Of a stretch of DNA of 40,421 nt, positions 30,873-40,405 are shown piece by piece. Both the position numbers and the translations under genes were made by a program. Numbering within the stretch: position 1 is the stretch's first letter; every line of letters begins with the position of its first letter. Below the pieces are notes generated by a model. The model made no database searches and had not been told where the DNA came from. It saw only the letters and a program-made list of their open reading frames with translations. The stretch is from Candidatus Hydrogenedentota bacterium (GTDB taxonomy: Bacteria > Hydrogenedentota > Hydrogenedentia > Hydrogenedentales > SLHB01), in NCBI GenBank assembly GCA_019695095.1, contig JAIBAQ010000034.1, positions 1-40,421 of the forward strand. The letters run 5' to 3'.

Positions 30873-32426
30873 ATGGAGTCAATTCGATCCGTGCCAGACA
30901 CTTCACCGAGCACCGTAAGCGACACGTTGGCCAAGCGCATCTTCGAACTGTCGCCTGTTGGCATGGCAGTGCTCTCGACTGACTATGCATGGGGAAGCGT
31001 GAACGATGCGTTCTGCCGCGCGTTTGGCTACACGCGCGAAGAGCTCCTTGCACTGACATGGAACCAACTGGTGTTTCAGGACGACGCGGGCCTGGCCGGA
31101 AAACACCTTAAACCCATCTTTGCCAGTAAGCGCCGTGGCGCTTCATTTGAAGCTCGGCTGAATGGCAAAGGAGACCGCACCTTCCTCGCACAGGTATCCG
31201 CAAGCTCCCTTTCGGAGGACGGCAAGGCGCCCAACTGTATTCTGGTAGCCGTTGAAGACCTGACCGAAAGGAGACTGGCCGAAGAGCATCGGCGTCACGC
31301 AGAGAAGATGGAAGCCATCGGCGTACTGGCGGGAGGATTCGGTCATGACTTCAACAACATCCTCGCAACTATCGATGGAAACCTCGACCTGGCACTGGAG
31401 GACCTCCCCGAGTCGCTGACAGGAATTCGGGAGTTTCTGTCGGATGCGCTCAACGCGACACGGCGCGCCAAAAGGCTTGTTCAGCAGATTCTGGCGTTCG
31501 GCAGACGGAAACCGGCAGAGCATAGACCCCTTGATCTGAGGCCGATCGCAACCGACGTCGCCCGGCTTATGCGGGCATCCCAACCCGCGAATATCGAGAT
31601 CGCATTGAGCCTTCCGGATTCGCCACTGGTGGTCAAGGGAGATGCCGCCCAAATGCACATGGCGTTCTTGAATCTGAGCACAAACGCGTGCGATGCCATG
31701 CGGGCAAACGGGGGCACGCTCTCCATCGTGCTGGGTCTGAAGCCTATGTGCAGAGACGGTCAACCTCAGACGTCATGCCCGTATGCAAGCATTGTCGTAC
31801 AGGATACCGGCGTAGGAATGGACGATGCCCTGCTCTGCCGGATCTTTGATCCCTATTTCACAACCAAGCCCAAGGGTGAAGGGGTCGGCATGGGATTGGC
31901 CGCGGTTCACGGAATCGTGGAGCGCCATGGGGGAAAGATAAAGGTAACAAGCAAACCGTCTTGTGGGTCGACGTTTGAAATGCTCCTGCCCGTAGTCGCG
32001 GATACCGTGCCAGATGATGACGCCTGGCTGCTCGACGACGGTCCGAGTGGAAACGGCGAATTGGTTCTCTTCGTGGACGACGAGCCGTCCATCATTAGCA
32101 TTGGGGAGCGATCGCTGGTTCGCCTCAACTATCGCGTCGTGAGTTCCACGAACAGTCAACAGGCCCTGGATTTGTTTCGCGCGTCTCCTGACGCATTCGA
32201 CATCGTGGTCACGGATCAAACCATGCCCCAATTGACAGGAATCGACATGGCGCGCGAGATGCTCCAAATCCGGCCCGATATCCCCATCATCCTCTGCACG
32301 GGATACAGCGAGAAAGTCTCGGAGGAGGTCGTTTACGAAGCGGGTATTCGAGCCTTGCTCTCGAAACCGATACTGACGCCCGTCATGGCGCAGGCCATTG
32401 AGAAAGCGCTGCGCTCAAGTGCGTGA
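30873..32426 (+). CDS. Soluble PAS hybrid sensor histidine kinase with C-terminal receiver
   Basis: The protein has 517 residues, with no membrane segment. It holds a PAS domain (about 18-130; LSPVGMAVLSTD, FGYTREELL), a dimerisation helix with the phospho-acceptor in GGFGHDFNNILATI (His158), and an ATPase domain (N box NLSTNACDAM, G1 DTGVGM, F box FDPYFTTK, G2 GEGVGMGLAAVHGI). A receiver follows at 396-515 with the acidic pair Asp402/403, acceptor Asp448 in VVTDQTMP, Thr476 and Lys498. All catalytic residues seem intact. It probably senses a cytoplasmic cue and phosphorylates the NtrC-type regulator encoded 195 bases downstream; the pairing is inferred from adjacency. No strong Shine-Dalgarno was found; a GTG at 30891 is an alternative start. 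Confidence 0.85.
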   Translation: MESIRSVPDTSPSTVSDTLAKRIFELSPVGMAVLSTDYAWGSVNDAFCRAFGYTREELLALTWNQLVFQDDAGLAGKHLKPIFASKRRGASFEARLNGKGDRTFLAQVSASSLSEDGKAPNCILVAVEDLTERRLAEEHRRHAEKMEAIGVLAGGFGHDFNNILATIDGNLDLALEDLPESLTGIREFLSDALNATRRAKRLVQQILAFGRRKPAEHRPLDLRPIATDVARLMRASQPANIEIALSLPDSPLVVKGDAAQMHMAFLNLSTNACDAMRANGGTLSIVLGLKPMCRDGQPQTSCPYASIVVQDTGVGMDDALLCRIFDPYFTTKPKGEGVGMGLAAVHGIVERHGGKIKVTSKPSCGSTFEMLLPVVADTVPDDDAWLLDDGPSGNGELVLFVDDEPSIISIGERSLVRLNYRVVSSTNSQQALDLFRASPDAFDIVVTDQTMPQLTGIDMAREMLQIRPDIPIILCTGYSEKVSEEVVYEAGIRALLSKPILTPVMAQAIEKALRSSA

Positions 32427-32621
32427 TTCAAATCGCGGTTGCGTGCGCCGCACAGCAGCGGCGCAAGCATGCGCATTGCATTGCGCACTCCATTTGAGGA
32501 ATTCTCATGATTGCGACGGGGTTGGATTCCTGGCGGCCTTCATTGGCAGTTTGCGGAACGCGTGTCGCACGAGCATGCATCTCAGCATGCCGGCAATGCG
32601 CGTTGAGAGGGTGGTAAACGA

Positions 32622-34031
32622 ATGGCTCGAGTCTTGATTGTCGACGATGACGAGGCATTTGCTCGCGTGCTTTCACACACCGTTGAACGTCTGGGGCACG
32701 ACACGGACACCGTAGGAACCTGTGCCAAAGCATTGTCGGCAGCGAGTGCCCACGCGTACGACGTGCTGTATCTGGACGTGAATCTGCCCGACGGCAACGG
32801 CCTGGAAATCCTGCCACTCCTGCAACAAGCCCACTCGCATCCGGAAACCATCATCATTACAGGGGCTGGCAACGCGGATGGCGCATCGCTCGCAATCCGA
32901 TCGGGCGCGTGGGACTATATTGAGAAGTCGGCAACGCGCCAGGAAATGACCCTGCCCCTGGTGCGGGCGCTTCAATACCGCGGAGAACGCCAAACCAAGA
33001 AGACCCGTTTATTCAATCGGTCCGCCATTGTGGGCGATTCTCCCAGCTTGCGTTTGTGTCTCGAAGCGGCGGCGCAGGCCGCGGAAAGTGACGCCAGCGT
33101 GTTGATTGTCGGAGAGACCGGCACGGGCAAGGAACTCATTGCGTCTGCCATTCATGAGAATGGGGCGCGCAAGCAGAAGAGTTTTGTCGTGGTGGACTGC
33201 GCCGCATTGCCCGAGACACTGGTCGAGAGCATCCTCTTCGGACACGTAAAGGGCGCGTTCACGGGGGCGAACACGGATCGAGAAGGTCTCGTGTTGCAGG
33301 CAGACGGCGGCACGCTATTTCTGGACGAAATCGGAGAGCTCCCGCTGCAACTACAGAAGTCCTTTCTGCGCGTATTGGAGGAACACTGCTTCAGGCCCGT
33401 CGGCGGACATGAAGTATTTTCCAGCGATTTCCGGCTTATCGCGGCGACCAATCGCGACCTGGAGGCCATGGCCCGGGCTGGTGAGTTCCGTCAGGATCTG
33501 CTGTTTCGTCTGCGCGTGCTGACTGTCGAAGTGCCTCCATTGCGAGAGCGGAAGGAGGATATTCGGGCCATTGCGATGCACCATGTGAACATGCTCTGCG
33601 AAAAGCACGGGGTTGCGACCAAGGGGTTCTCTCCGGACTTCTTCAGCATGCTCACGGCCTACGATTGGCCTGGAAACGTGCGGGAACTGGTTCACGCGTT
33701 GGACCGTGTATTTGCCTATGCACGCGAAGACAACGTCCTCTTCCCCAAACACCTTCCGACGGAACTGCGGGTGAAAATGTCGCGCTACGGCGTCCACGGC
33801 CAAGTCCCCCAGGTCGCCATCTCCCCTGACGTACGGCCCAAACCCGCGTCATTGCCTGCGATGAAAGAAATGCGGGATGCCGCCATTGCGACCGCAGAGC
33901 GGCGTTACCTGGAGGATTTAATGGCGCTGACGGAAGGCAACATTAACGCGGCCTGCAAAATATCGGGGCTTTCCGTACCCAGGCTGTACGCCCTCCTCAA
34001 GCAATATGAAATCTCTCGCAAGGGCGGCTGA
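32622..34031 (+). CDS. NtrC-family sigma-54-dependent response regulator
   Basis: The protein has 469 residues. The N-terminal receiver has Asp8, Asp9, the acceptor Asp52 in VLYLDVNLPDG, Thr80 and Lys102. The central AAA+ domain has Walker A GETGTGKE (164-171), the sigma-54 contact loop GAFTGA (211-216), Walker B TLFLDEIGE, and FRQDLLFRLRVLTVEVPPLR (sensor/arginine-finger region). A Fis-type helix-turn-helix lies at 425-465 (GNINAACKISGLSVPRLYAL). Phosphorylated proteins of this kind oligomerise on upstream sites and use ATP to open sigma-54 promoters. The next transcription unit starts with just such a promoter and two palindromes, so it is the likely direct target. The sensor is probably the hybrid kinase upstream. 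Confidence 0.93.
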   Translation: MARVLIVDDDEAFARVLSHTVERLGHDTDTVGTCAKALSAASAHAYDVLYLDVNLPDGNGLEILPLLQQAHSHPETIIITGAGNADGASLAIRSGAWDYIEKSATRQEMTLPLVRALQYRGERQTKKTRLFNRSAIVGDSPSLRLCLEAAAQAAESDASVLIVGETGTGKELIASAIHENGARKQKSFVVVDCAALPETLVESILFGHVKGAFTGANTDREGLVLQADGGTLFLDEIGELPLQLQKSFLRVLEEHCFRPVGGHEVFSSDFRLIAATNRDLEAMARAGEFRQDLLFRLRVLTVEVPPLRERKEDIRAIAMHHVNMLCEKHGVATKGFSPDFFSMLTAYDWPGNVRELVHALDRVFAYAREDNVLFPKHLPTELRVKMSRYGVHGQVPQVAISPDVRPKPASLPAMKEMRDAAIATAERRYLEDLMALTEGNINAACKISGLSVPRLYALLKQYEISRKGG

Positions 34032-34225: not shown

Positions 34226-34284
34226 ATTGCCCCAAGCCTCGTATGGGTTGCGGACTGCGGATAGACGCGAAGGGGTATGCGGCT

Positions 34285-34734
34285 ATGGGATCACGAATCC
34301 TGTTCCTGGATCAGGATCTCGACCATGTCAGCAGACGTTTGCGCGGGGTCCTCTCCGAAGCGGGACTTGATCATCGAGTCGAATACTTCGACTCCGATAA
34401 AGCTCTCTTGGAACGGCTTTTGGGTCCACTCGACGACATTATGCTCACCATCATTCGCGTGCGCGACAAAGAGCATCTCGTTCAGCTTGCGATCCACAGC
34501 ATGTTCTTACGAGGTATCCGCGTAGTCGTCGTATTACCTGAAATGGGTCACGAGAGCATCACCATTGCACACATCTTTCATCCCAGCCTCGTGCTAAGCG
34601 TCGAGGACGACTTCGGCGAAGTCGCGGCGATAGTGGACAAGCTGATGCGCTCTGAAACGGAAGAAGGCAATTGCAGTCCGGGCGGTCCGTCTCCCAGGCG
34701 AGCAGCGGCATATACCAAAGCGGCGGACGAGTGA
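34285..34734 (+). CDS. Degenerate CheY-like (pseudo-receiver) protein
   Basis: The protein has 149 residues. The start at 34285 is chosen because AAGGGG lies 9 bases upstream and because the earlier ATG at 34243 would leave almost no leader after the sigma-54 start. The opening SRILFLDQDLDHVSRRL mimics a receiver strand 1 with its acidic pair, and the spacing of later strands (DDIMLTIIRVRD, GIRVVVVLPEMG, PSLVLSVEDDFGEVAAIVDKL) fits the receiver fold. The usual phospho-acceptor Asp at the end of strand 3 and the Lys of strand 5 are not recognisable, so phosphorylation is unlikely. The last 28 residues are a disordered tail. First gene of the chemosensory unit. It could be a phosphorylation-independent adaptor. 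The fold assignment is moderate. Confidence 0.5.
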   Translation: MGSRILFLDQDLDHVSRRLRGVLSEAGLDHRVEYFDSDKALLERLLGPLDDIMLTIIRVRDKEHLVQLAIHSMFLRGIRVVVVLPEMGHESITIAHIFHPSLVLSVEDDFGEVAAIVDKLMRSETEEGNCSPGGPSPRRAAAYTKAADE

Positions 34735-34750: not shown

Positions 34751-34762
34751 TTGGGTACCCAA
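34751..34762. repeat. Perfect 12-base palindrome before cheW
   Basis: TTGGGTACCCAA lies 18 bases before the cheW start codon, just upstream of its Shine-Dalgarno (AGGGAGA). It is a possible operator or a chance palindrome. Confidence 0.3.
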
Positions 34763-34780
34763 AACAGGGAGAAAGCGATT

Positions 34781-35293
34781 ATGACCTATTCAGACGCGAA
34801 AACCACTACAGGGCGCTCGTTCGGGGCGGCGGGCAAGTATCTGACCTTCACCCTGGGGGAGGAAACGTACGGACTGGAAATCCTGACAGTCCAGGAGATC
34901 ATCGGCATATTGCCGGTGACGCATGTACCCAACACGCCCGCCTACGTGCGGGGCGTAATCAACCTTCGCGGAAAAGTGATCCCCGTCGTGGACCTTCGGC
35001 TGAAGTTTGGTTTGGAAGCGGCGCAAGACACAGAGCGAACCTGCATCATCGTGCTGCAAACCAAACGCGAAGACGGTATTCCGTCAACGACGGGAATCAT
35101 AGTCGACTCGGTCTCCGAAGTGCTGGCCATCACGGAAGAGCAAATCGAAGAACCACCTTCTTTTGGAGATTCGGTGGAAATCGATTTCCTGAAAGGCATC
35201 GCGAAAGTCGGCGACAAAGTGTGTGAATTACTGGATTTGGAGCGCACGCTGTCTAGCGCGGCCATTGTCGCAGCGGCAGAAGGCAAGGCGTAG
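34781..35293 (+). CDS. cheW: Chemotaxis coupling protein CheW
   Basis: The protein has 170 residues. CheW links chemoreceptors to the CheA kinase in membrane arrays. After a disordered start of about 17 residues the SH3-like double barrel runs from [20 protein letters not shown] to LLDLERTL. The conserved receptor/CheA-binding block [18 protein letters not shown] (56-73) and the [13 protein letters not shown] strand are intact. The start at 34781 is chosen for AGGGAGA upstream and the typical short N-terminus; the longer frame would begin upstream, within the palindrome. It is 46 bases after the receiver-like gene and 83 before the first chemoreceptor, so likely in one operon with them. Confidence 0.93.
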
Positions 35294-35376: not shown

Positions 35377-37434
35377 ATGTTCACAAATCTTACGCTTGGA
35401 AAGAAGATTGCCGTCGGTTTCGGCACGTTGATGCTCCTCATGGCATTTCTGGGCGGTCTGGCCGTGTGGAACATTGGTTCGGTACGCCAGCAAATCACGT
35501 ATTTGACCACCGAGAATATTCCCGAAGTGCAAGTCGCTAACGACGTGGAGCGGCATTCACTGCTGACGATGTACAACATGCGAGGGTATGCGCTGAGTTA
35601 CGACCCGAAATTCTGGGATCAGGGCGCGACCGAACTCGAGTCGGTAAAGAAGTATCTCACCGACGCGAAGGCGATGGGCGACAGCACTCCGCGACTGGCG
35701 AAGCTGAAAGAGGCTGCATCGATTGCAGAGGAGCATGCGCTGGAGTACGAAGGATTGGCGAAGCAGTCCAAGGAGACCATCGACCAAATCGCCAAGGACC
35801 GCGAGACATTGAATGAAGCTGCCAAGAAGTACATGGACGTCTGCTACGCGTTCCTGGCAGGTCAGGAAGCAAAGCTGCGCGAGGAGCTGACCGGCAAAGC
35901 GGCCGAAGGCGACGCAACGGCGCAAGCAGGAGCGACGACGGGGGCGATTACGCCGGATAAGCTGGTCCAGCGAGCAGACAAGGTCACGATCGTCAACAAC
36001 ATTATCGACCAAGGCAATGAGACTCGAATTGCCGTGTGGAAGGGCCAGGCCCTGAACGATGCAAAGTCGATTGAGGAGGCCCTGAAGAACTTCGATGAAA
36101 TCGCCAAGTTGCTTGAATCCCTCAAGCCGATCACGCACCTGGAAGAGGACCTAAAGCGCATCGAAGAGTGCAATGCGGCCGGAATGGAATACAAGACAGC
36201 CATGACAGAACTTGTCGGGTCCATGACGAAGCTCGCCGATATTTCGACGAAACGGGGCGAGGCTGCGCAAGCCGTGCTCGACCAGGCCCAGAGTACGGCG
36301 AAGATGGGTATGGACGACACGGTTCGCGTGGCGACGGCGGCGGTGTCGGATGCTTCCACCCAAATCATCATTGGATTCTGCATCTCCGTGGCGATTGGCA
36401 TTGTAATGGCATTGCTCATCACCCGCAGCATCACGCGCGCGATCACAATTATCATCGGCAATCTCCGCGAAGGCGCGGCGCAGGTTAATAGCGCTTCACA
36501 GCAAGTAGCCCAGGCGAGCCAATCGATGGCGGAAGGCGCGAGCGAACAAGCGTCATCGCTGGAAGAAACTTCCGCGTCTCTCGAAGAACTCACTTCGATG
36601 ACCCGGCAGAACGCGGAGAACGCCAACAAGGCCAACGCGATGACCATCGAAGCGCGCAACGGCGCCGACAAGGGCCGCGCGGCCATGAAGGGGATGATGG
36701 AAGCAGTGGCCCAGATCAAGTCATCGTCCGACGAGACTGCGCGCATCATCAAGACCATTGACGAAATCGCGTTCCAGACGAATCTGCTGGCGCTGAATGC
36801 GGCGGTGGAAGCGGCACGGGCGGGCGACGCAGGCAAAGGCTTTGCGGTGGTCGCCGAGGAAGTACGCAACCTGGCGCAGCGCAGCGCGGAAGCGGCAAAG
36901 AACACCGCTGCCCTGATAGACGAATCGAAGAAGAACTCCGATCGCGGCGTGGCGGCCTCCGACGAAGTCGCGTCGATCCTCGAGCAGATCGCCGATTCGG
37001 TCAGCAAGGTCGCAACGCTGATGGCCGAAGTGTCCGCGGGTAGCAATGAACAAGCGCAAGGCATCGATCAGATTTCGACGGCGGTTGCACAGATGGACAA
37101 GGTAACGCAAACAACAGCAGCGAATTCGGAAGAAGCGGCTTCCGCGGGCGAGGAACTGTCTGCGCAAGCCCGCGAATTGAATGAAATGGTGGCCTCGCTG
37201 ACCGCGCTCATCAAAGGGCGCGCGGCAGCGGAAGCAGATCTTAGGAGCGACGGGAACGGACTTGCTCTCGGTTCCGGTAAACGCCGTGTCGCCACGCTCG
37301 GTTTCTCAGGCGGCAACGGAGACCGTCGCTCCAAGTCCTCGACAGGCACCGCATTGGCGGCGCCGTCGGCGCGTTCACGCGTAGCCAGTCCGGAGCAAGT
37401 GATTCCTCTTGACGAGGACATCAAAGACTTCTAG
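35377..37434 (+). CDS. Methyl-accepting chemotaxis protein with helical sensor domain
   Basis: The protein has 685 residues. TM1 (about 11-33) and TM2 (about 329-349) enclose a mainly helical periplasmic domain of about 295 residues, resembling helical bimodular (HBM) or four-helix sensor domains ([20 protein letters not shown]). A disordered linker, roughly residues 172-192 ([15 protein letters not shown]), sits in its middle. After TM2 there is no recognisable full HAMP; the coil leads directly to adaptation helices ([18 protein letters not shown]) and the signalling tip [20 protein letters not shown]. The tail ends [13 protein letters not shown] and lacks a CheR-tether pentapeptide. AAGGAGAA precedes the ATG. 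The ligand is unknown. The downstream receptor is its paralogue and has a carbonic anhydrase domain in place of the linker. Confidence 0.93.
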
Positions 37435-37459
37435 GGCTATCGAGTGGAACGAGTGGTAA

Positions 37460-37485
37460 TCCCGGCCGGTTTCGACCGGCCGGGA
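37460..37485 (+). terminator. Hairpin between the two chemoreceptor genes
   Basis: An 11-bp perfect stem (TCCCGGCCGGT / ACCGGCCGGGA) with a TTCG loop starts 25 bases past the first receptor's stop. With no U-run after it, it may be a partial terminator or an mRNA-stabilising structure that separates expression of the two receptors. Confidence 0.6.
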
Positions 37486-37612
37486 CTCCACACCTCCGAG
37501 ATTGTGAGTGCGCGATGCATGGGCGGAACTGGGAAATGTCGCCGCGGACTACACACGAGCAACAGCGTACCTTCCGCAATGCCATCGAAAAACTGCTAGA
37601 GGAGAGAAACGA

Positions 37613-40405
37613 ATGTATTCAGGCATGACGCTTGGGAAAAAGATTGCCGGGGGCTTTGGGATCCTGATGATTCTGATGGGCCTTCTGGGCGCTCTGGCCG
37701 TTTGGAACATCGGGGCAGTTCGACAGCAGGTGACTCATCTGACGACGGAGAACCTCCCCGAAGTTGAAGTGGCAAACGAGGTGGAGCGCAATTCACTCAA
37801 AACGATGTACCAGATGCGCGGGTTCGCTCTGAGCGAGGAACCCAAGTACTGGGAAGAGACGAACAAGAATCTGGATGCGGTAAAGAAGTATTTGACGGAC
37901 GCGAAGACGCTGGGGGGAAGCACTCCGCGCCTGGCGAAGCTGCTGGAGGCCGCGACAGTCGCCGAGGAGCACGCGCTGGAGTATGAACGGCTCGCCAAGC
38001 AGACCAACGAAAAGATCACGGCCATCACGGAAAGCCGCACAAAGCTTAATGAGGCGGCCCAGACATTTATGGAGCAGTGCGCTTTGTACCTGGCAGGCCA
38101 GGAAAAGAGCATGGCGAGCGACATCACGGGCGAGGCCGCACCCGCGGCCACGCAGGCCGAGCCGGCTCAGCATGCCGCGGCCGCCAAAGAGACCGAGGCG
38201 GCCCCGGTGGCGGTGCCGGAGTGTCCGGACGGCGATGCGGTGATACAGAAGTTGAAGGAAGGGAACGGCAGGTTTGTGGCCGGCGCCAGCCAGCACCCGG
38301 ATGCGACGGCGAGCCGGAGAACGGACACGGCACAGAACGGTCAGAAGCCAATCGCCACTATCATCGGGTGTTCGGATTCGCGCGTTCCGCTGGAAGTGGT
38401 CTTTGACCAGGGGATCGGGACGCTTTTTGTAGTGCGCGTGGCGGGGAATGTCTGCGACACGGACGAAATCGGCTCAAGCGAGTATGGAGTGGACCATCTT
38501 GAGACGCCGTTGCTTGTGGTGCTTGGGCACACGAAATGCGGCGCGGTGACGGCGGTTGCAACGAATGCAGCGCTCCACGGCAACCTGCCGGGTCTGGTGG
38601 ACAACATCGGCCCGGCGGTAGCCGCGGCGAAGGCAGGCGCGGCGAATCTGTCGGGCGACGCGCTGGTAGACGCGTCGATTCGCGCGAACGTATGGCAGTC
38701 GATCGAGGACATGCTGCGCCGCAGTCCTGCCATTCAGGAACGGGTGAAGGCGGGCAAGACGAAGGTCATTGGCGCAATGTATCACCTGGACTCGGGCGAG
38801 GTCGAGTGGCTGGGGCCGCATCCGCGCCTGGGCAGCCTTCTTGCGGAACCGGCGGGCGCGCCTGGGCACGTTGCGGCCGGCGAGACCTCACACGCAGGAC
38901 CGACGAAGGTTGCGTCGGCTCCCGAAAAGCTGATGCAACGGCTGGGCAAGATTGCCACGGCAAACAGGGTTGCCAATCTAGGACAAGAGACGCGGGTGGC
39001 CGTGTGGAAGGCGCAGGCATCGCGCGACCCCAAGCTCATTGAGGGTGCGTTCGGGAACCTGGATGAAATAGAGAAGGAACTGGCGTCACTGGTTCCCATC
39101 ACGACTCAGGCCGCCAACCTGGAGCAGATCGAGAAGACGCGGGCGGCCGCACAGGAATACAAGGCGGCAATGACGGTTCTACATGATGCCATGGTGGAAC
39201 TGGCCGAACTCGGCGCGAAGCGGCAGGAAGCGGGCGATCAAGTTCTCGCACAGGCAGAGAGCACAGCCAAGCTTGGGATGGAGGATACGGCGCGGGTAGC
39301 GACGGCGGCAGTTTCTGACGCATCAACGCAGATAGTGATTGGTTTCTGTATTTCGGCGGCGATTGGCATCGTGCTGGCGCTCTTGATAACGCGGAGTATT
39401 ACACACTCGATCACGGGCATCATTGGCGGCTTGCGGGAAGGCGCGGCGCAGGTGAACAGCGCGTCGCAGCAGGTGGCGCAGGCGAGTCAGTCGATGGCGG
39501 AAGGCGCAAGCGAGCAGGCGTCATCGCTCGAAGAAACCTCTGCGTCGCTGGAAGAGCTGACGTCGATGACGCGCCAGAACGCGGACAATGCAATAAAGGC
39601 GAACTCCATGACCATCGAAGCGCGCAACGGAGCAGACAAAGGGCGCGCGGCCATGCAGGGCATGATGGAAGCGGTGGCCCAGATCAAGTCATCGTCGGAC
39701 GAGACGGCACGGATCATCAAGACCATCGACGAAATTGCGTTCCAGACGAATCTGCTGGCGTTGAATGCGGCGGTGGAAGCGGCGCGCGCCGGCGATGCGG
39801 GCAAAGGATTCGCGGTTGTGGCCGAGGAGGTGCGCAACCTGGCCCAGCGCAGCGCGGAGGCAGCCAAGAACACGGCGGCACTGATTGACGAGTCGAAGAA
39901 AAACTCCGATCGGGGTGTGGCCGCGTCCGAGGAGGTGGCAGCGATCCTGGAGCAGATTGCGGGTTCGGTAGGAAACGTGGCTGCGCTGATGGCAGAGGTT
40001 TCCGCGGGCAGCAATGAGCAGGCGCAGGGTATCGAGCAAATTTCGACGGCTGTCGCGCAGATGGACAAGGTAACGCAGACGACAGCGGCAAACTCGGAGG
40101 AGGCTGCATCGGCGGGCGAGGAGTTGTCGGCCCAGGCGCGCGAACTGAACGAGATGGTGGCCAATCTTACGGCGCTGATCAGGGGCCGTGCCGCGGCAAA
40201 CGATGACCTGGGATACAACGGCGGGCGTACTTCGAGCGGGCATGGCGCGCGGCGAGCAGCAGCACCGGGCCATGCGATCAAGAGCATCGACCGCCGATCC
40301 GGTTCCACTGGCAGGACAGCGCTGGCATCGGCGCCGGCGCGGTCACACGTAGCCAACCCCGAGCAGGTATTGCCTCTGGATGACGATGAGATGAAGGACT
40401 TCTAA
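37613..40405 (+). CDS. Chemoreceptor with beta-carbonic anhydrase inserted in its periplasmic sensor domain
   Basis: The protein has 930 residues. The start at 37613 follows GAGGAG and aligns with the neighbouring receptor's N-terminus. TM1 is about 11-33, TM2 about 572-593. Residues 34-170 match the first half of the paralogue's helical sensor domain, and 436-571 its second half. Between them lie an Ala/Pro/Glu-rich linker (172-202), a complete beta-carbonic anhydrase (about 203-402) and a second Gly/Ala/Pro-rich linker. The enzyme site is intact: GCSDSRVP (Cys253, Asp255, Arg257) and GHTKCGAV (His306, Cys309). After TM2 come methylation helices and the signalling tip [20 protein letters not shown], nearly identical to the paralogue's; HAMP is not recognisable. 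CO2/bicarbonate sensing is inferred, not shown. The fusion is one continuous frame with no stop or shift. Confidence 0.93.
38219..38818 (+). other. Embedded beta-carbonic anhydrase domain (residues about 203-402)
   Basis: This part of the chemoreceptor gene encodes a full-length bacterial beta-carbonic anhydrase. It opens with [20 protein letters not shown], continues with the zinc motif GCSDSRVP, the strand [14 protein letters not shown] and the second zinc motif GHTKCGAV, and closes with [15 protein letters not shown]. Beta-carbonic anhydrases interconvert CO2 and bicarbonate. No separate ribosome site or start context is needed; it is in frame with the receptor on both sides. Domain edges are estimated by eye. 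Confidence 0.92.

Follow-up and report, generated by a model that had tools for sequence, protein, structure and literature searches.

A chemoreceptor with a nested beta-carbonic anhydrase and its enzyme-free tandem sister in a Candidatus Hydrogenedentota genome

How did one of two neighbouring chemoreceptors come to carry an enzyme inside its sensor, and what might the enzyme do there? The question is raised by contig JAIBAQ010000034.1 (assembly GCA_019695095.1) of a Candidatus Hydrogenedentota bacterium, whose 40,421 nucleotides are called the window in the following. Two receptor genes lie in tandem on its + strand, 3' of a CheW gene: P0001 (35377..37434, +, 685 aa), without enzyme, and P0002 (37613..40405, +, 930 aa), which holds a nested beta-carbonic anhydrase (CA). 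The sequence comparisons point to a single old nesting that preceded the divergence of P0001 and P0002, with P0001 most likely having lost the enzyme, a history that we regard as quite probable. Joined to the proposal that the enzyme acts catalytically in sensing, it forms our best overall explanation, to which we give an even chance.

The two receptors have the first transmembrane segment (TM1), the sensor, the second transmembrane segment (TM2), the signalling domain and the C-terminal tail in common. The first-pass annotation of this DNA had described an alignment running from the first residue to a C-terminal EQVxPLDxD...KDF tail and a length difference of 245 residues, and both were recovered: the proteins aligned end to end with the tails as stated, showing 64% identity over residues 1-176 and 75% over residues 173-685 of P0001 versus 418-930 of P0002. 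The start of P0002 was set at the ATG following a GAGGAGA stretch, while the mechanically called frame opens earlier, at a GTG at 37508. Hydropathy placed TM1 and TM2, which flank a predicted periplasmic sensor, at residues 11-29 and 330-348 of P0001 and at residues 11-29 and 574-592 of P0002 (TM2 of the latter at 39332..39388, +). The Pfam MCPsignal domain was recognised in both receptors with 154.8 and 151.1 bits (cut-off 34.6), at residues 423-577 of P0001 (36643..37107, +) and 667-821 of P0002 (39611..40075, +). PLDxDxKDF-like tails occur at 37395-37431 and 40360-40402 of the window, many relatives end similarly, and such a tail may perhaps be a tether for CheR or CheB.

The CA and its linkers stand where P0001 has only a short linker, as the first-pass annotation had proposed, and the alignment and the structural model define this slot as the 20 residues 173-192 of P0001 (35893..35952, +), with a predicted local distance difference test score (pLDDT) below 50 over residues 174-190. 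At the same point P0002 has a left linker of 30-odd residues, rich in Ala and Pro and bearing a PVAxxxCPxGD motif (residues 173-204; 38129..38224, +; pLDDT below 50 over 176-194), then the beta-CA domain (residues 205-415; 38225..38857, +) and, from the alignment and the model, a right linker (residues 416-436, or about 412-436 if the CA is delimited on the model; 38858..38920, +); both linkers are predicted to be disordered in the AlphaFold model. The enzyme was identified by Pfam Pro_CA on residues 248-397, with 131.8 bits against a cut-off of 25.7. The solved sequences nearest to it are 2a5v and 1ym3, and its modelled fold matches Mycobacterium tuberculosis Rv3588c (2a5v). Its catalytic motifs are intact: the CxDxR motif reads CSDSR and the HxxC motif HTKC, and both motifs were present in all 134 CA rows compared and in every one of the 19 CA domains that are fused to receptors. 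Candidate zinc ligands are Cys253 and Asp255 (38369..38377, +) together with His306 and Cys309 (38528..38539, +), the ligands of beta-CAs being the Cys and Asp of CxDxR and the His and Cys of HxxC. Since W39 of the Haemophilus influenzae CA, presumably part of its allosteric bicarbonate site, apparently corresponds to Ile250 in P0002, allostery of the H. influenzae type was not relied on.

The position of the enzyme within the sensor was assessed on AlphaFold2 models. The model of P0002 residues 1-600 (mean pLDDT 80.5, predicted template modelling score (pTM) 0.44) showed helices at 7-73, 77-101 and 105-172, the CA at 205-411 and further helices at 437-470, 473-493 and 500-599, and that of P0001 residues 1-348 lacked the CA but reproduced all six helices (pLDDT 71.0, pTM 0.59). 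Helices 1-3, together with TM1, make up the N-half of the sensor (residues 1-172 in both; 35377..35892, + in P0001 and, by alignment and model, 37613..38128, + in P0002), and helices 4-6 the C-half (residues 193-329 of P0001, 35953..36363, +; residues 437-573 of P0002, 38921..39331, +). Compared as profiles, the two halves are similar (E 6.6e-5, probability 64%). In a fold search the P0001 sensor matched McpS (Z 16.4 over 233 residues, root-mean-square deviation 3.7), McpZ (Z 15.7), TorS (14.4) and PilJ (14.3), the first three outscoring unrelated helical rows, the best of which reached about 14 over shorter stretches. No solved relative of the sensor was found by sequence at E below 0.05, and the Pfam HBM family (PF16591, cut-off 29.8) was missed by P0001, with 25.4 bits, and gave no match to P0002. 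On the models, the sensor is thus described as HBM-like, a predicted two-module six-helix fold not classed as Pfam HBM, in which the CA slot falls between helix 3 and helix 4. The helix lengths of P0001, alternating from the membrane (43 up, 25 down, 68 up, 33 down, 21 up and 74 down), sum back to zero, so the slot would lie at the far tip of the sensor, about 86 residues or 130 angstrom from the membrane. The slot, two linkers and one loop that is probably membrane-distal, marks where the receptor tolerates an inserted folded enzyme.

Nested receptors of this kind were then sought in other genomes. Within the phylum of the window, 2 of 68 genomes carried the nested form, namely the window's own and G048, of the same family and another genus. 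In Planctomycetota, the Phycisphaerae isolate PDA_C_MAG.97 (G068) was the sole nested case among 392 genomes drawn at phylum level, and two cases, G068 and G740, occurred among 347 genomes of its class, the two draws overlapping. Three other phyla gave none in 395, 40 and 387 genomes, with at most three candidates scored per genome in the 395- and 387-genome searches and the latter run without a positive control; a search for plasmid-borne copies returned CA matches only, in 3 records. The flanking helices are the same in all four nested receptors. A PVxxxxCPxG motif precedes the enzyme in P0002, G048 and G068, and G740 retains its second half (QPCPKGD). The G740 receptor (L194 9089-11104) ends just past TM2 with no signalling domain nearby, which may reflect a truncated gene, an assembly error or a new use.

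The order of events was addressed by comparing receptor and CA trees. The receptor tree was calculated from 22 sensors with the halves joined and the CA excluded; the sensor trees omit L124, a 1425-aa frame without MCP motif, and L167, a partial frame. P0001 and P0002 were sisters with support of 100/100, and building each half alone, as the first-pass annotation had suggested, united them again (100/99 and 100/98). The CA tree kept 76 sequences, 58 of 134 rows having been dropped, and grouped the CAs of P0002, G048, G068 and G740 in one clade at 98/94; a reduced tree, with three high-scoring stand-alone CAs added and 26 rows removed, gave the clade 93/94, just under the starred level, the bootstraps of both trees not having settled. 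Three of the four were also together (98) in a quick tree of 133. Within the clade, the P0002 and G048 enzymes form one pair and those of G068 and G740 the other. On the receptor tree P0001 falls between P0002 and G048, and a clade of P0002 and G048 without P0001 was rejected both on the 22 sensors (p 8e-8) and in the separate analysis of the sensor halves (p 3e-6); groupings of P0001, P0002 and G048 (p 0.26) and of G068 and G740 (p 0.215) were not rejected. P0001 and P0002 diverged far less deeply (0.65) than P0002 and G048 (1.74), and over six pairs the CA and sensor distances keep step (ratio 0.44-0.71). The CA family is older than the P0001/P0002 split and, as judged from these trees, so is its nesting in the receptor. 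Because the nested CA predates the split, P0001 is likelier to have lost the enzyme than P0002 is to have gained it by insertion after the duplication; on the simplest reading, an old nested CA would have been carried along with the receptor and then lost in P0001 and in several relatives.

The first-pass annotation had instead proposed a tandem duplication followed by insertion of the enzyme, naming loss from an older fusion as the outcome that would speak against it. Its adjacent sister paralogues stand, and the trees come close to that contrary outcome, given the rejection of P0002 with G048 to the exclusion of P0001. That a stand-alone CA was newly inserted into P0002 after the duplication fits the adjacency of the two sisters, but the P0002 enzyme groups with three receptor-borne CAs rather than beside a stand-alone one (98/94 and 93/94) and other nested receptors share the slot and junction motif, and we consider this order very improbable, the least likely of all. 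A better, still rather unlikely, alternative is that the pair was duplicated enzyme-free and that recombination across the conserved flanks later gave P0002 a CA cassette already assembled in another nested receptor. Homologous flanks make such an exchange possible, and receptors with and without the enzyme are intermingled on the tree. On the other hand, the CA tree and the receptors have the same deep split, P0002 and G048 versus G068 and G740, and had the cassette come recently from one of the sampled lineages, the CA distance should be shortened, whereas it keeps step with that of the sensors.

Several observations weigh against the single old nesting that we prefer. The four fusions as one receptor clade were rejected by the approximately unbiased (AU) test (p 2.7e-5), and one ancient fusion needs several losses, as against four gains for independent events. 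The fused and unfused labels change four times on the receptor tree, no fewer than when shuffled, and this number cannot separate one gain with losses from four gains. As the nested form occurs in only two genomes of the family, the losses rest on thin sampling. Moreover, no clear scar of the CA was found in the P0001 linker by shuffle tests and by comparison with 114 other CA caps. The resemblance of its EGDAT to the CPEGDAT of G048, a comparison made after it had been noticed, was equalled against the nested CA caps by 0 of 400 shuffles and, in a larger run, by 98 of 20000, or by 485 of 20000 when G048 was left out; other CA caps fitted the linker as well as those of P0002, G048, G068 and G740 in 8, 0, 92 and 18 of the 114 cases, respectively. 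Finally, both structural models are single-chain predictions with low pTM values and shallow alignments.

As for the age of the pair, synonymous divergence (dS) between P0001 and P0002 is 1.2-2.7 by region and 0.79 at the signalling tip, where the proteins are 100% identical over residues 440-520. Regional protein identity is 63% in the N-half, 55% in the C-half, 91% in TM2-HAMP, 93% in the signalling domain and 52% in the C-terminal tail. For most of their length the two genes are nearly saturated at synonymous sites, indicating a duplication that is old and has been under purifying selection. In codons 441-480 alone dS falls as low as 0.39, which hints at a possible local gene conversion; outside these codons the dS values rule out a recent duplication or wholesale gene conversion.

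The linker had also been proposed to be a permissive slot, for which other genomes were to be inspected, and such a case was found: the receptors of two Planctomycetota genomes, G074 and G415, hold an extra sensor half-module there. Together with the CA, the slot therefore takes at least two kinds of insert. The G074 receptor is the closest relative of the G068 fusion, with 58% identity. The third half-modules represent an expansion of module number in frames of 808 aa (L195 5300-7723, G074) and 782 aa (L196 4273-6618, G415); McpZ is a longer relative by fold. Another domain in the slot of G053, an 891-aa frame, was ruled out, its extra length being frame 5' of the likely start.

A wider survey covered 80 genome loci with the CAs most like that of P0002. 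Thirteen of these were one-frame CA-receptor fusions, one nested (L040) and 12 with an N-terminal CA. All 12 have three hydrophobic segments and then the signalling domain after the CA, and nine have a hydrophobic segment before it; the enzyme is predicted to face the periplasm in both layouts. With the window included, CA-receptors were found, as judged by the taxonomy labels and titles of the records, in five phyla: the window's own, Planctomycetota, Spirochaetota, Thermodesulfobacteriota and Sumerlaeota. In the 76-CA tree the N-terminal fusions fall in separate CA groups, well-supported branches forcing at least four changes. A CheW gene was seen close to the CA-receptor in 4 of the 17 loci examined, which differ in length (the window, G050, L045 and L087). 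G050, from the window's family, carries an N-terminal CA-receptor in the order CheW, CA-receptor, CheW and enzyme-free HBM-like receptor (L119 2582-8653), thus the partners seen in the window with the other fusion layout. Two of the N-terminal fusions have two tandem CA domains ahead of the receptor (L064 5080-9036 and L071 5296-9756). Two Spirochaetia CAs with three hydrophobic segments and no receptor domain (L049 5872-6987 and L051 293-1549) lie near the L045 CA-receptor in the CA trees, and many Planctomycetota CAs stand in frames of about 760 aa (757-808 aa), perhaps transporter fusions.

What might the enzyme do at this position? Uncatalysed CO2 hydration takes tens of seconds, while chemotactic memory lasts seconds, so that an on-receptor CA, if active, would solve a timing problem. 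The P0002 CA would most likely hydrate CO2 to bicarbonate and protons at the sensor tip, or catalyse the back reaction, and keep them equilibrated there, making a slow chemical equilibrium fast enough for chemotaxis. The helical bundle could then follow CO2 in real time by sensing the product or pH through its usual dimer-interface site, with TM2 relaying the signal to CheA, and the read-out of P0001 would be that of the bundle with no catalysis nearby. According to PMC5126104, the ligands of HBM receptors are small organic acids, which bind at the dimer interface and stabilise the dimer; bicarbonate is a reported Helicobacter pylori attractant, though not necessarily by direct binding (PMC5245789). 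We consider this mechanism, derived from sequence, a plausible one whose chance falls slightly short of even.

The CA might instead be the sensor rather than a relevant catalyst, bicarbonate or pH shifting its oligomeric or active-site state and so pulling helices 3 and 4. It sits directly between two sensor helices, and the dimer stabilisation by which HBM domains signal (PMC5126104) would suit such a device. However, both linkers are predicted to be disordered, which fits tethering better than tight mechanical coupling, the motifs are retained in all 19 fused domains and the N-terminal layout puts two membrane segments between CA and bundle; even with beta-CAs being dimeric, we find it unlikely. 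Equally doubtful is the idea that the receptor is a handle by which an ordinary periplasmic CA is stationed in the receptor array for housekeeping unrelated to sensing. Stand-alone CAs that start or end with a hydrophobic stretch, suggesting export or anchoring, are numerous among the close relatives, but the receptor fusion recurs in separate CA lineages and has CheW neighbours. Beyond P0002, we advance with reserve a broader class of enzyme-coupled CO2 chemoreceptors, which is possible rather than probable: spread over at least five phyla in at least two separately arisen layouts, their periplasmic CA would turn CO2 gradients into local signals of bicarbonate or pH, quickly enough for a chemotactic memory of seconds, and the enzyme-free sister would serve as a built-in reference channel.

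The CheW coupling protein gene directly upstream of the pair (34751..35293, +) scored 137.7 bits with Pfam CheW, and the source genome also encodes CheA and FliG. Farther 5' of this cluster, positions 30873-34031 encode a PAS hybrid histidine kinase and a sigma-54 response regulator, and 34243-34734 is without Pfam match. The contig ends 16 bases 3' of the P0002 stop.

We know of no receptor mechanism for bacterial CO2 taxis, and the recurrence of enzyme-bearing receptors across bacteria hints at a way to taste CO2, for which the enzyme-free adjacent sister with its identical signalling tip provides a natural control within one genome. Receptors with a built-in CA appear to be unreported: none was found in the literature searched, mostly outside subscription journals, and the accessible part of a Pelobacter paper (PMC3543383) describes no CA-receptor fusion.

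Among known systems, the closest in sequence and fold to the P0002 enzyme is the M. tuberculosis beta-CA Rv3588c, which, unlike it, is stand-alone in the solved entries. The fungal CO2-sensing CA Can2 (2w3n) offers a functional likeness, in that a CA supplies bicarbonate to a sensor, as P0002 would do. Can2 feeds a bicarbonate-responsive adenylyl cyclase, to which it is not fused, and is not known to act in chemotaxis. The hydrolase RsbQ and RsbP-PAS differ from P0002 in being separate proteins, cytoplasmic and of other chemistry. According to PMC3183031 they nevertheless sense as a single unit made up of an enzyme and a sensory domain. The receptor itself resembles the HBM-type McpS of Pseudomonas putida, with six helices in two modules forming the periplasmic sensor that TM1 and TM2 flank, and an MCP signalling domain; unlike P0002, McpS has no enzyme domain, and neither window receptor reaches the Pfam HBM cut-off. 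In CtpL-PstS and TorS-TorT, likewise, a helical HBM-like sensor works with a folded periplasmic partner, there a separate protein, CtpL recognising loaded PstS (PMC5126104). In P0002, by contrast, an enzyme takes the place of the partner and forms part of the receptor chain itself.

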